64,000 bases of DNA from Mesorhizobium sp. C432A. Its GTDB lineage: Bacteria > Pseudomonadota > Alphaproteobacteria > Rhizobiales > Rhizobiaceae. Position numbers and translations under genes: made by a program. The stretch spans positions 3,575,001 through 3,639,000 of the forward strand of contig NZ_CP100470.1 of the NCBI RefSeq assembly GCF_030323145.1. Reading direction: 5' to 3'. Shown here in pieces: positions 40,771-52,568 of the stretch. The first letter of the stretch is position 1. Each line of letters begins with the position of its first letter. Under the pieces are notes generated by a model that was not told the DNA's origin, ran no database searches, and saw only the letters and a program-made list of their open reading frames with translations.

Positions 40771-41598
40771 ATGACGACGATTGCGCTGCTCGGTGCCGGC
40801 GGCAAAATGGGTTACCGCCTGTCGACCAATTTTCGCGGATCGCTCTACACGGTACGCCATGTCGAGGTGAGCGAGGCCGGCCGCGAGCGGCTGAAGACCG
40901 GACTGGGCTTTGACGCGGTCAGTGCCGATGCGGCGCTGGACGGGGCGGATATCGTCATCCTGGCCGTTCCCGATACGCATATCGGCAAGGTGGCGGCTGA
41001 TATCGAGAGCAAGCTCGCGCCTGGCACGATGGTGATAGTGCTCGACGCGGCCGCACCCTTCGCCGGCCATCTGCCCAACCGGCCGGACCTGACCTATTTC
41101 GTCACCCATCCCTGTCATCCGCCGATCTTCAACGACGAGACCGACATGGCGGCCAAGAAGGATTATTTTGGCGGCGTCAAGGCCAAGCAGCATATGGTCA
41201 GCGCGCTGATGCAGGGGCCGGAAGCGGACTACGCCAAGGGCGAGGCGGTCGCAAAAATCATCTGGGCGCCGGTCATGCGCTCGCACCGTGTCACCGTCGA
41301 ACAGATGGCGCTGCTGGAGCCCGGTCTCTCGGAGACGGTGTGCGCGTCACTGCTTGTCGTCATGAAGGAAGCCGTCGACGAGGTCGTCGCGCGAGGCGTC
41401 GACCAACAGGCGGCGCTCGATTTCCTGCTCGGCCACATGAACGTGCTCGGCGCCGTGATTTTCGGCGAGACCAAGGGCGTATTCTCGGATGCCTGCAACA
41501 AGGCGATCGAATTCGGCAAGCCGGTGCTGATGCGCGACGACTGGAAGCGGGTGTTCGAGCCCGAAGAGATCGCCGCCAGCATTCGGCGCATTACCTGA
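40771..41598 (+). CDS. apnO: D-apionate oxidoisomerase
   Basis: 275 aa. N-terminal NAD(P)-binding fold (IALLGAGGKMGYRLS) and a C-terminal phosphogluconate-dehydrogenase-like helical domain (FVTHPCHPP region, then MRSHRVTVEQMALLEPGLSE). This family was shown to convert D-apionate to 3-oxo-isoapionate in D-apiose breakdown. Presence of the dehydrogenase, lactonase, kinase and decarboxylase of that pathway in the next 11 kb makes the assignment firm. Own transcription unit with an operator-like site just upstream. Confidence 0.85.
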   Translation: MTTIALLGAGGKMGYRLSTNFRGSLYTVRHVEVSEAGRERLKTGLGFDAVSADAALDGADIVILAVPDTHIGKVAADIESKLAPGTMVIVLDAAAPFAGHLPNRPDLTYFVTHPCHPPIFNDETDMAAKKDYFGGVKAKQHMVSALMQGPEADYAKGEAVAKIIWAPVMRSHRVTVEQMALLEPGLSETVCASLLVVMKEAVDEVVARGVDQQAALDFLLGHMNVLGAVIFGETKGVFSDACNKAIEFGKPVLMRDDWKRVFEPEEIAASIRRIT

Positions 41599-41707
41599 GA
41601 CAGGCCGAGTCGGGCGCTTGCCGGAGCGCCTCGATGGCTCGACACACCCGCCATGACGAACAGATGTTTTGCTCAGTGGGAACATGTCACCTCAATTAGT
41701 GATTGAC

Positions 41708-41719
41708 TCATCATACCAG
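41708..41719. promoter_or_regulatory. operator candidate 2 of the apiose cluster
   Basis: TCATCATACCAG, sharing 10 of 12 positions with candidate 1 and 11 of 12 with candidate 3. It lies 203 bp before the importer's binding-protein gene. Confidence 0.5.
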
Positions 41720-41880
41720 TTGGCTTAGCTGTTGATGGCTTGGGCAAGGATTCGCGAGAAGTACGAAGCCTGGGCGAGTGGAGGGACGGCGGGGGAGCAG
41801 CGATCGTTTGGGAAGCCGGCACCGGCATTCAGCCTGAACGGATTGGCGGCCCGCGTTGCGCGACGAATTCGAGTGCAGAG

Positions 41881-41898
41881 GCCTTGATTGATCAAGGC
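41881..41898. promoter_or_regulatory. palindrome in the leader of the ABC operon
   Basis: GCCTTGAT (41881-41888), TG, ATCAAGGC (41891-41898): perfect 8-bp arms, followed by AATTTTTC, and 13 nt before the GGGAGG ribosome site of the binding-protein gene. Could be an operator or an RNA hairpin. Confidence 0.5.
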
Positions 41899-41921
41899 AA
41901 TTTTTCAAACGGGAGGACATC

Positions 41922-49911: not shown

Positions 49912-49923
49912 TCATTATACCAG
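49912..49923. promoter_or_regulatory. operator candidate 3 of the apiose cluster
   Basis: TCATTATACCAG, in the divergent region between the GntR gene and oiaX, 55 bp before oiaX. Same core as the sites at 40706 and 41708. Confidence 0.5.
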
Positions 49924-49978
49924 ATTCCGACGATCAAGGAACTCTTTTCGAACCCCCTGCGGCCTCAGACAACGAACC

Positions 49979-51229
49979 ATGATCACGCTCACCTACCGCA
50001 TCGAGACATCAGGCAGCATCGAGACGCTGGCAGCCAAGATCGCCAGCGACCAGTCGACTGGAACCTTCGTCGCGCTGCCCGGCGAGACCGAGGAACTGAA
50101 AGCCCGGGTGGCCGCGCGTGTCCTGGCCATTCGGCACCTGCCGGACGCACTTCGCCCCTCCATTCCCGAGGCCGGCAACGGGCCGTTCAAGCGCGCGGAT
50201 GTCGACATCGCCTTTCCATTCGATGCCATCGGCCACGACCTGTCGGCTCTGATGACCATTGGCATCGGCGGCGCCTATTCGATCAAGGGCCTAACCGGCA
50301 TTCGCGTTGTCGACATGAAGCTGCCGGAGCAATTCCGCGGCGCGCATCCAGGTCCGCAATTCGGCGTCGCCGGCAGCCGCAGGCTGACAGGTGTCACGGA
50401 TCGGCCGATCATCGGCACCATCGTCAAGCCGGCGCTGGGGCTGCGGCCCCCCGAGACCGCCGCGATGGTGGGCGAGCTGATCGCCGCCGGTGTCGATTTC
50501 ATCAAGGACGACGAGAAGCTGATGAGCCCAGCCTATTCGCCGCTGGCGGAGCGGGTAAAGGCAATCATGCCGCTGATCCTCGACCACGAGCAGAGGACCG
50601 GCAAGAAGGTGATGTATGCCTTCGGCATCTCGCATGCCGACCCGGACGAGATGATGCGCAACCACGATCTGGTGGCCAAGGCGGGCGGCAATTGCGCGGT
50701 GGTCAACATCAATTCGATAGGCTTCGGTGGCATGGCGTTTCTTAGAAAACGCTCCAGCCTGGTGCTGCATGCCCATCGCAACGGCTGGGACATTCTTACT
50801 CGCCATCCCGGCCTCGGCATGGACTTCAAGGTCTGGCAACAGTTCTGGCGGCTGCTCGGCGTCGACCAGTTCCAGATCAACGGCATCCAATCGAAATACT
50901 GGGAGCCGGACGCGTCTTTCGTCGAGTCCTTCAAGGCGGTGACGACGCCGATTTTTGCGCCTGAGGATTGCGCCTTGCCTGTGGCGGGCTCCGGCCAATG
51001 GGGCGGGCAAGCGCCCGAGACCTATGAACGGACCGGCCGCACGGTCGATCTGCTCTATCTGTGCGGCGGCGGCATCGTCAGCCATCCGGATGGACCGGGC
51101 GCCGGGGTGCGTGCCGTGCAGCAAGCCTGGCAGGCGGCGGTCGACGGCATTCCGCTGGCGGATTTCGCCTTGAGCCATCCGGAGCTGGCGCGGTCGATCG
51201 AAAAATTCGGCGACGGCAAAGCGGCCTGA
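49979..51229 (+). CDS. oiaX: RuBisCO-like protein, 3-oxo-isoapionate-4-phosphate decarboxylase
   Basis: 416 aa from ATG 49979. RuBisCO large-subunit fold: TIVKPALGLRP corresponds to the loop with the first catalytic Lys, GVDFIKDDEKLM is the metal site with the carbamylated Lys plus Asp-Glu, LHAHRNG matches the HRA region, and VAGSGQWGG replaces the loop-7 SGG region. A RuBisCO-like protein in a D-apiose cluster with OiaK is OiaX, which decarboxylates 3-oxo-isoapionate 4-phosphate to L-erythrulose 1-phosphate. It does not fix CO2. It starts its own unit and is followed by oiaK after 4 nt. Confidence 0.87.
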   Translation: MITLTYRIETSGSIETLAAKIASDQSTGTFVALPGETEELKARVAARVLAIRHLPDALRPSIPEAGNGPFKRADVDIAFPFDAIGHDLSALMTIGIGGAYSIKGLTGIRVVDMKLPEQFRGAHPGPQFGVAGSRRLTGVTDRPIIGTIVKPALGLRPPETAAMVGELIAAGVDFIKDDEKLMSPAYSPLAERVKAIMPLILDHEQRTGKKVMYAFGISHADPDEMMRNHDLVAKAGGNCAVVNINSIGFGGMAFLRKRSSLVLHAHRNGWDILTRHPGLGMDFKVWQQFWRLLGVDQFQINGIQSKYWEPDASFVESFKAVTTPIFAPEDCALPVAGSGQWGGQAPETYERTGRTVDLLYLCGGGIVSHPDGPGAGVRAVQQAWQAAVDGIPLADFALSHPELARSIEKFGDGKAA

Positions 51230-51233
51230 AGCA

Positions 51234-52568
51234 ATGCAAGACCTGCTTCTCAGCTATTATGGCGACGACCTCACCGGCTCGACCGACGTCATGGAAGCGC
51301 TCGAACTCGGCGGCGTCCCGACCGTGCTGTTCATGCGCCAGCCGGACGCGGCCATGGTTGAGCAGTTCAGCCATTGCCGCGCCATTGGCCTGGCCGGCAC
51401 CAGCCGCAGCGAGACGCCGCAATGGATGGACACGCATCTGAGCGATGCCTTCGCTTGGCTGAAGACGCTGAATGCCGCGATCTGTCACTACAAGGTCTGC
51501 TCGACCTTCGATTCCAGCCCGGCGATCGGCAGCATCGGCCGGGCGATCGAGATCGGCCGCTCGGTCTTCGCGCAGGACAGCGTGCCGCTGCTGGTCGGGG
51601 CGCCGCAACTCAAGCGTTACACTGCCTTCGGTCATCTATTCGCGGCCTATCGTGAAAAGTATTTCCGCATCGACCGCCATCCGGTGATGAGCCGCCACCC
51701 GACGACGCCGATGGATGAATCCGACCTGCTGATCCATCTGTCGCGGCAGACGGAGCTCACGTCGGGGCTGGTCGATCTCGCGACGTTGCAGTCGGCGTCG
51801 CGCTCGGAAGCCTTCGACCGCTTGCTCGCTGAGGGCACCGACATCGTACTTGTCGATGTCGACAGCCTCGAGACGCAGGCGCTTGCCGGCAAGGAGATAT
51901 GGCGCGCCCGCAAGCCGGGCGGTTCGTTCGTCGTCGGCTCGTCGGGGATCGAATATGCGCTGCTGGCCGAATGGGTGTCGAACGGGACAGTCAGAGCTGA
52001 ACCAGAATTTTCGCCGCCGGGTGCCGCCGACCGGATCGCGGTCGTCTCGGGCAGTTGTTCGTCGACGACCGAACGACAGATCCGTCACGCTTTGACTGAC
52101 GGCTTCGACGGCATCGAGGTCGATCCCGTCGAACTGGTCTCCGAAGCTTCCGGAGATGCGATCGCACGCGCAGCAGCAGCCGGTCGCGCCAGCCTGGAAG
52201 GCGGACGCAGCGTCGTTCTCTACACGGCCCTTGGACCCGCGGCCGACAGGGGGGACGACATCGACCGCCAGGAAGGCGCCCGCCACAAGCTCGGGCGGGG
52301 CCTCGGCGAACTGCTTCGCGCGCTGACCATCGAGCAGAAGTTGCAGCGCGTGGTCGTTGCCGGCGGCGATACGTCGAGCCACGCGCTCGGCCAGATGGGT
52401 GTCGATGCGCTGACCGTGCGGATGCCGTTGCCGGCGTCGCCGGGCTCGCCGCTTTGCGTCGCTCACTCGCGCGTCAAGGCGATCGATGGGCTGGAGGTGG
52501 CACTCAAGGGCGGGCAGGTTGGAACCGACCGCTATTTCAGCGCCATCCGTGACGGCCTTAGCAGCTGA
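51234..52568 (+). CDS. oiaK: 3-oxo-isoapionate kinase (DUF1537 family)
   Basis: 444 aa. N-terminal DUF1537 domain beginning LLSYYGDDLTGSTDVMEALE and a C-terminal nucleotide-binding domain with VVAGGDTSSHAL. The family phosphorylates four-carbon acid sugars and, in this context, 3-oxo-isoapionate, supplying the OiaX substrate. Starts 4 nt after oiaX. ATP-site region GSCSSTTERQIRHAL is intact. Confidence 0.87.
   Translation: MQDLLLSYYGDDLTGSTDVMEALELGGVPTVLFMRQPDAAMVEQFSHCRAIGLAGTSRSETPQWMDTHLSDAFAWLKTLNAAICHYKVCSTFDSSPAIGSIGRAIEIGRSVFAQDSVPLLVGAPQLKRYTAFGHLFAAYREKYFRIDRHPVMSRHPTTPMDESDLLIHLSRQTELTSGLVDLATLQSASRSEAFDRLLAEGTDIVLVDVDSLETQALAGKEIWRARKPGGSFVVGSSGIEYALLAEWVSNGTVRAEPEFSPPGAADRIAVVSGSCSSTTERQIRHALTDGFDGIEVDPVELVSEASGDAIARAAAAGRASLEGGRSVVLYTALGPAADRGDDIDRQEGARHKLGRGLGELLRALTIEQKLQRVVVAGGDTSSHALGQMGVDALTVRMPLPASPGSPLCVAHSRVKAIDGLEVALKGGQVGTDRYFSAIRDGLSS

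Follow-up and report, generated by a model that had tools for sequence, protein, structure and literature searches.

What completes the breakdown of D-apiose when an apiose gene cluster holds no isomerases for the last product of its own enzymes? This question is raised by a stretch of 64,000 nucleotides from the chromosome of the root-nodule bacterium Mesorhizobium sp. C432A (the window; C1:3575001-3639000 of a one-contig genome of 6.02 Mb), in which apiose genes occupy positions 40771..52568 in the order apnO; importer genes with a DUF2291 gene; apsD; apnL; gntR (minus strand); oiaX; oiaK. The closest named homologues of the window proteins are from Mesorhizobium. We conclude that these genes very probably form a regulon for D-apiose catabolism by the decarboxylase route, and that apiose and erythritol catabolism probably share a pair of isomerases encoded in an adjoining erythritol locus. 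The decarboxylase pathway itself, ApsD-ApnL-ApnO-OiaK-OiaX, was reportedly described by Carter et al. in 2018; the pathway seen here is that known one in another arrangement, to which the regulon and the shared tail would be the additions.

The apiose gene set and its counterparts in Rhizobium etli

The original prediction, made from the window alone, was of a complete early D-apiose pathway. Open reading frames, Pfam and NCBIfam matches and start codons place every named gene where it had been put, including an ApnL of 612 residues (Table 1), and the family assignments of ApsD, ApnL, ApnO, OiaK and OiaX hold against curated models, PDB matches and R. etli orthology. ApnL scores above the cut-off of the curated NCBI model for D-apionate lactonase, and ApnO carries a PGDH_C domain and matches the PDB entry 5t57, which we take to be ApnO, the solved oxidoisomerase. 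ApsD matches 5uhw over 341 residues, presumably the ApsD of A. radiobacter. The substrate-binding protein of the importer (sbp) matches 5ibq and 4ry0; the R. etli entry is titled 'probable ribose' binding protein, and we assume that its structure is a D-apiose complex. All of these PDB matches come with generic molecule names only, and no ApsD model was among the matches in an NCBIfam scan of the window proteins. In an excerpt of PMC7535918, 5UI9, whose sequence is identical to that of 5uhw, is an oxidoreductase of Agrobacterium radiobacter. The 632-residue open reading frame listed for oiaX was over-extended, the RuBisCO-like protein (RLP) beginning at its residue 217. Many Mesorhizobium homologues at NCBI are already named OiaX.

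The gene set is no chance assembly, because each of the 13 genes that begin with oiaX and end with dhaL on R. etli CFN 42 p42f (L116, NC_007766.1) has a counterpart here, at 56-88% identity. Nine of these counterparts lie inside the window and four (two isomerases, dhaK and dhaL) past its end. The R. etli genes form a single run, with gntR divergent from oiaX-oiaK-lerI-derI-apnO-sbp-DUF2291-ABC-permease-apsD-apnL-dhaK-dhaL; lerI, derI and the apiose names except oiaX are assigned there by homology. Both genomes have the local order apnO-sbp-DUF2291-ABC-permease-apsD-apnL, whereas the blocks as a whole are rearranged in the window, with counterparts of lerI, derI and dhaKL at the distal end of the erythritol locus. 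By orthology and family models, the window shares with the known decarboxylase pathway each of the five enzymes and the CUT2 importer, and a NanR-type regulator is likewise found beside oiaX; it differs in having three units and a cluster without lerI and derI.

In the pathway that we propose, the importer would take up D-apiose, ApsD would oxidise it to the lactone and ApnL would convert the lactone to D-apionate. ApnO would then bring about migration and oxidation to 3-oxo-isoapionate, OiaK would phosphorylate 3-oxo-isoapionate, and the RuBisCO-like OiaX would decarboxylate the phosphorylated product to L-erythrulose 1-phosphate, which is the known product of OiaX. The same L-erythrulose 1-phosphate would also be the product of EryC from the adjacent erythritol locus, and TpiB (LerI) and RpiB (DerI) of that locus would convert it to D-erythrose 4-phosphate for entry into the pentose phosphate pathway. 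From sequence we infer, for this strain, the catalytic steps, the role of the regulator and the part played by the erythritol isomerases in apiose breakdown.

A putative operator common to the three units

ApnO, the importer operon and oiaX-oiaK had been described as separate units; this is right, yet they are joined by a common putative operator. The generalised motif TSATNATACCAGW has three matches in the window with at most one mismatch, against 0.16 expected, and TSATNATACCAG has four sites in the whole genome, three of them before apnO, the importer and oiaX, compared with none for the reversed control. These three sites served to generalise the motif and so do not count as independent evidence for it, unlike its scarcity elsewhere and its conservation. 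The fourth site (C1:4385285) lies between two open reading frames that on inspection look like genes for a glutamine synthetase and for a transporter.

Octamers of CATTATACCA occur in all 98 gntR-oiaX intergenic stretches collected, a set in which some genomes are present twice, and TATACCAG occurs in 95 of them. Across 81 loci (80 with a named OiaX, plus R. etli), gntR stands directly before oiaX every time, and the operator lies between the two in 78, the remaining three deviating at the last base. Elsewhere in these loci the operator was found in the apnO-sbp gap (49), before apnO with nothing mapped leftward (42), in the gap between oiaK or derI and apnO (11), before sbp with nothing mapped leftward (5) and in other places (7). 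R. etli p42f likewise has an operator before oiaX and another before apnO. No perfect inverted repeats were found at oiaX or before apnO by the criteria applied. NanR of E. coli recognises GGTATA, a sequence that resembles the operator motif read on its reverse strand. Through this common putative operator the three apiose units look like one regulon, with the NanR-type GntR protein as the probable apiose regulator, which would coordinate them. The original prediction was silent on this regulator, as it was on a frame-shifted DUF2291 gene and on the adjoining erythritol locus.

The late isomerases lie in the adjoining erythritol locus

Neither isomerase family (LerI, DerI) is represented within the window, and the wording 'early pathway' was apt: the late isomerases sit beyond the window, inside the erythritol operon. 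From position 57081 the DNA reads as an erythritol locus, with a SorC-type regulator, a DUF2291 protein, an importer, eryA, eryB, eryC, tpiB and rpiB; the names eryD and eryE-eryF-eryG are assigned by position. Genome-wide there are two TIM genes and a single RpiB-family gene. One TIM gene and the RpiB gene are found at genome positions 3641701-3642932, behind eryA-eryB-eryC and ahead of minus-strand dhaL and dhaK; RpiB closes the erythritol operon, 16 kb downstream. This RpiB passes the DerI model NF051858 (252 against 240 bits) and is 80% identical to its R. etli counterpart, the TIM 67%. Excerpts of PMC10733421 assign to LerI and DerI the conversion of L-erythrulose 1-phosphate to erythrose 4-phosphate, and to EryC that of D- to L-erythrulose 1-phosphate; OiaX appears in an excerpt of PMC11747546 by EC number only.

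The arrangement varies among relatives. We examined the 80 named OiaX loci with flanks of up to 10 kb; nine end too early, which leaves 71 informative. Genes of the ery type are near oiaX in 19 of the 80, isomerases follow oiaK on the opposite strand with the ery genes not reached in 13, and one (L097) has an rpiB on the same strand, ahead of apnO. The linkage has arisen more than once or been reshuffled, since Rhizobium sp. Root1220 and isolate AFS000733 (L109, L112) have the erythritol operon next to the opposite flank of the apiose cluster. We also sampled 119 genomes of the genus: 68 with OiaX (at least 88% identity), 50 without, and one with only an RLP at 47%, which has no RpiB and was left out of the test that follows. 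Of the 68 genomes with OiaX, 63 also have RpiB, against 14 of the 50 that lack OiaX (Fisher p 1.8e-13, uncorrected for kinship); RpiB lies within 30 kb of oiaX in 40 of the 68, and farther away or on another contig in 23. In the five genomes with OiaX and no RpiB (G026, G073, G099, G109, G111) the contigs stop 1.45-1.66 kb past oiaX; the nearly equal distance in these drafts, with the break about where oiaK ends, suggests a repeated sequence there. A survey across the class (385 genomes, E 1e-60) found OiaX matches in four, and was not useful for linkage because these were the genome itself and three relatives at 43-47% identity.

Several observations weigh against the regulon or its shared tail. 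OiaK has the OiaK model NF042436 as its top NCBIfam match, at 463 bits and under the cut-off of 700. The apiose importer's DUF2291 gene (42955-43598) has its signal-peptide part and its mature part in different frames, which could impair apiose uptake unless it is a sequencing error. Isomerase genes of the cluster's own come right after oiaK in seven of the 71 informative loci, and 31 of the 71 lack both isomerase and ery genes in the 10 kb flanks of oiaX. Finally, no operator was found from oiaK to the window end with up to one mismatch, nor in any of 31 DerI regions of relatives, and the isomerase stretch (L005, up to two mismatches) has one match against 1.2 expected; an operator before the isomerases was rejected on this chance-level count. 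The isomerases would need another inducer, because the operator was not found in their regions.

Some of these points can be set in proportion. The cut-off of NF042436 is not discriminating here, because all four RLP-linked kinases tried fall below it, the other three being those of R. etli (adjoining oiaX, 473 bits), Labrenzia (426) and Halalkalicoccus (505); we call the DUF1537 kinase of the window OiaK by context and orthology rather than by model. The DUF2291 gene is in one frame in seven of seven near relatives by DNA comparison (six named Mesorhizobium and one 'Rhizobiales bacterium'), and its split would be either a pseudogene in this strain or a sequencing error. For the unlinked clusters, we searched 30 of the 31 genomes, leaving out L050. 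DerI is above its cut-off in all 30, as a single copy in 29, and in all 30 a copy stands among at least three of eryA-eryD.

The second DerI copy of one unlinked genome adjoins another OiaX-like gene. In R. freirei (G760, the genome of L092), locus L224 combines an additional OiaX-like gene (66%), LerI- and DerI-like genes, and a kinase of weak relatedness (35%).

The tail of apiose catabolism might instead be supplied by other isomerases (the second TIM, an RpiA), with the co-occurrence of RpiB reflecting lifestyle or kinship. The lack of kinship correction in the association of OiaX with RpiB, the absence of the operator from the isomerase block and the second TIM gene of the genome all leave room for this. 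However, DerI stood among ery genes in every one of the 30 unlinked genomes, the sole RpiB of the present genome passes the DerI model, and R. etli and some other clusters have lerI and derI of their own. We consider other isomerases rather improbable, and shared use of TpiB and RpiB the better account.

OiaX compared with other RuBisCO-like proteins

A tail of tetrose isomerases would not be needed if the RLP were OiaT, the transcarboxylase/hydrolase whose products are 3-phosphoglycerate and glycolate, and the closeness of the erythritol locus would then be incidental. Some apiose-type clusters do have a different RLP: a Labrenzia RLP (L184, 42% identity) is accompanied by ApnO-, importer- and Gfo/Idh/MocA-type genes, and another RLP (G716 L178, 46%) by apsD and apnO. 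By contrast, the window protein falls in a clade with OiaX proteins named by NCBI (100/100), outside the branch of those two, and passes the OiaX equivalog NF042437 (774.9 against 700 bits); the R. etli run, moreover, itself holds lerI and derI. We rejected OiaT as the identity of the window protein on its clade and on the curated OiaX cut-off, and regard an OiaT-type pathway as very unlikely. The clusters on a plasmid of Labrenzia sp. THAF191b (L184) and at L178, apiose-type with a non-OiaX RLP, are candidates for the OiaT branch. Both RLP activities, decarboxylation and transcarboxylation/hydrolysis, are named in an excerpt of PMC6302742.

A tree of OiaX against other RuBisCO-like groups had been suggested as a check, and ours comprised 21 RuBisCO-like and RuBisCO proteins. 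The OiaX clade has seven rows: the window protein, two of Mesorhizobium type, and those of R. etli, R. rhizogenes, Ochrobactrum and Martelella, of which two (R. etli and Martelella) are named OiaX by NCBI. Outside it are the RLPs of Azospirillum and Bradyrhizobium elkanii beside TRAP transporters, the RLP of the Labrenzia apiose-type cluster, a haloarchaeal RLP, RuBisCO forms I and II, RLPs near mtnA or transketolase genes, and RLPs of other genomes at 43-47% identity. The deep order is unsure, with long branches for forms I and II, Vibrio and Shinella that drew a warning from the tree program. Grouping with another RuBisCO-like clade, for example that of methionine salvage (MtnW), had been named as an outcome that would speak against OiaX; the tree has no MtnW row, and MtnW was rejected by score, both of its models failing (144/409 and 104/514).

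Among the RuBisCO residues, in what we take to be RuBisCO numbering, K175, K201, D203 and E204 are kept, K177 is replaced by Ala and S379 by Gly; positions 294-298 are unmapped, and column 334 looks unreliable (form II has Gly there). By this alignment the window RLP appears to be without the full set of RuBisCO catalytic residues.

We think it very unlikely that these genes act on some other branched or C5 sugar acid in place of D-apiose. Some Mesorhizobium do have a second set of RLP, ApnO-like, GntR and importer genes beside the apiose cluster, and related sets may thus have other substrates. However, ApnL and OiaX reach equivalog scores, the binding protein is 88% identical to that of R. 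etli, and growth on D-apiose is documented in an excerpt of PMC11747546 for a Rhodobacteraceae strain whose annotation includes these five enzyme functions.

The second RLP of these Mesorhizobium (43-45% to OiaX) lies about 15 kb before oiaX (L168 4313-11980, also L170 and L171), in a set that includes an ApnO-like protein (52-53%), a GntR regulator and an ABC importer. Pfam, run on L168 alone of the three, identifies next to it a xylose-isomerase-like barrel, an APH-type kinase and an IF-2B-family protein. The set is possibly a pathway for another sugar.

The erythritol locus and the block between

Rhizobiales erythritol loci in excerpts of PMC3599248 consist of eryABCD, eryEFG and eryR-tpiB-rpiB, and in M. 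ciceri eryD precedes the genes of the EryEFG transporter. The order eryD-eryEFG-eryABC-tpiB-rpiB of the window locus resembles these loci. Unlike those described in PMC3599248, the window locus is joined to the apiose regulon and to a block encoding a sugar kinase (FGGY2), a DeoR-family regulator and a dehydrogenase (GlpD2); the words RuBisCO and DeoR are absent from the main text of that paper. Within the open-licence literature, we found no paper on a link between apiose and erythritol.

FGGY2 and GlpD2 were rejected as eryA and eryB, for which better candidates, only distantly similar to them, lie downstream. FGGY2 has no NCBIfam model above cut-off, and a PDB search (E 1e-40) gave one sequence, an autoinducer-2 kinase at 144 bits. 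It is present in 30 of 247 family genomes sampled (E 1e-120), this genome counted, and stands with ery genes in 19 of 20 regions examined from the 29 other FGGY2 genomes; G270, G192 and Ochrobactrum chromiisoli L104 have ery-type genes, FGGY2-GlpD2 and apiose genes together. A kinase and a GlpD-type dehydrogenase alone would give a ketose phosphate dependent on enzymes of the neighbours. Our guess for the substrate is a C4 polyol such as threitol.

Table 1. Features of the apiose regulon and the adjoining genes, numbered from the window start (start codons checked) except in the last row; percentages are identities.
Feature	Position	Strand	Evidence
Putative operator TSATNATACCAGW before apnO	40706..40718	+	motif search
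apnO, D-apionate oxidoisomerase	40771..41598	+	PGDH_C PF16896 241 bits; 5t57 424 bits; 78% to R. etli
Putative operator before importer operon	41708..41720	+	motif search
CUT2 importer operon, whole span	41922..46203	+	
CUT2 substrate-binding protein (sbp), presumed D-apiose	41922..42863	+	PDB 5ibq/4ry0 552/551 bits; 88% to R. etli
DUF2291 lipoprotein gene of apiose importer	42955..43598	+	Pfam DUF2291 192 bits (mature part); 59% to R. etli (mature part)
Importer ATPase	43595..45142	+	family models; 74% to R. etli
Importer permease	45139..46203	+	family models; 83% to R. etli
apsD, D-apiose dehydrogenase (Gfo/Idh/MocA)	46206..47240	+	PDB 5uhw 576 bits; 72% to R. etli
apnL, D-apionate lactonase, 612 aa	47237..49075	+	NF049900 933 bits (cut-off 750); 56% to R. 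etli
GntR-family regulator, NanR subfamily	49078..49791	-	NF003011 355 bits (cut-off 260)
Putative operator between gntR and oiaX	49912..49924	+	motif search
oiaX, predicted RuBisCO-like 3-oxo-isoapionate-4-phosphate decarboxylase	49979..51229	+	NF042437 775 bits (cut-off 700); 83% to R. etli
oiaK, predicted 3-oxo-isoapionate kinase (DUF1537)	51234..52568	+	Pfam SBD_N/NBD_C; 60% to R. etli
FGGY2 sugar kinase	52804..54321	+	32% to EryA
DeoR-family regulator	54318..55094	+	Pfam
GlpD2, GlpD-type polyol-phosphate dehydrogenase	55091..56803	+	31% to EryB
eryD-like SorC-family regulator, start of erythritol locus	57081..58145	+	Pfam/NCBIfam; name by position
DUF2291 protein of erythritol importer	58179..58826	+	Pfam
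eryE-eryF-eryG-type importer (ATPase 58823-60361, permease 60388-61521, binding protein 61555-62502)	58823..62502	+	
eryA-like FGGY kinase, leaves window (end = 64173 in window numbering)	62614..64000	+	
Beyond window: eryB, eryC, tpiB, rpiB (DerI), then dhaL/dhaK (-)	genome 3639170-3644627		

Implications for apiose use in rhizobia

A wider reading, possible but doubtful, is that L-erythrulose 1-phosphate is a hub, reached from D-apiose via OiaX, from erythritol via EryA-EryB-EryC, from L-erythrulose via a DhaKL-type kinase and from a C4 polyol (perhaps threitol) via FGGY2-GlpD2, with one TpiB-RpiB exit and with apiose growth genetically requiring the erythritol operon. Apiose is a branched sugar of plant cell walls, and in many rhizobial carriers the pathway for it seems to be tail-less and reliant on a polyol operon. 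If this is true, mutants in the isomerases of the erythritol operon would lose growth on apiose, one NanR-type regulator with a defined operator would control the apiose genes, and horizontal transfer of such an apiose cluster would succeed only where tpiB-rpiB is present.

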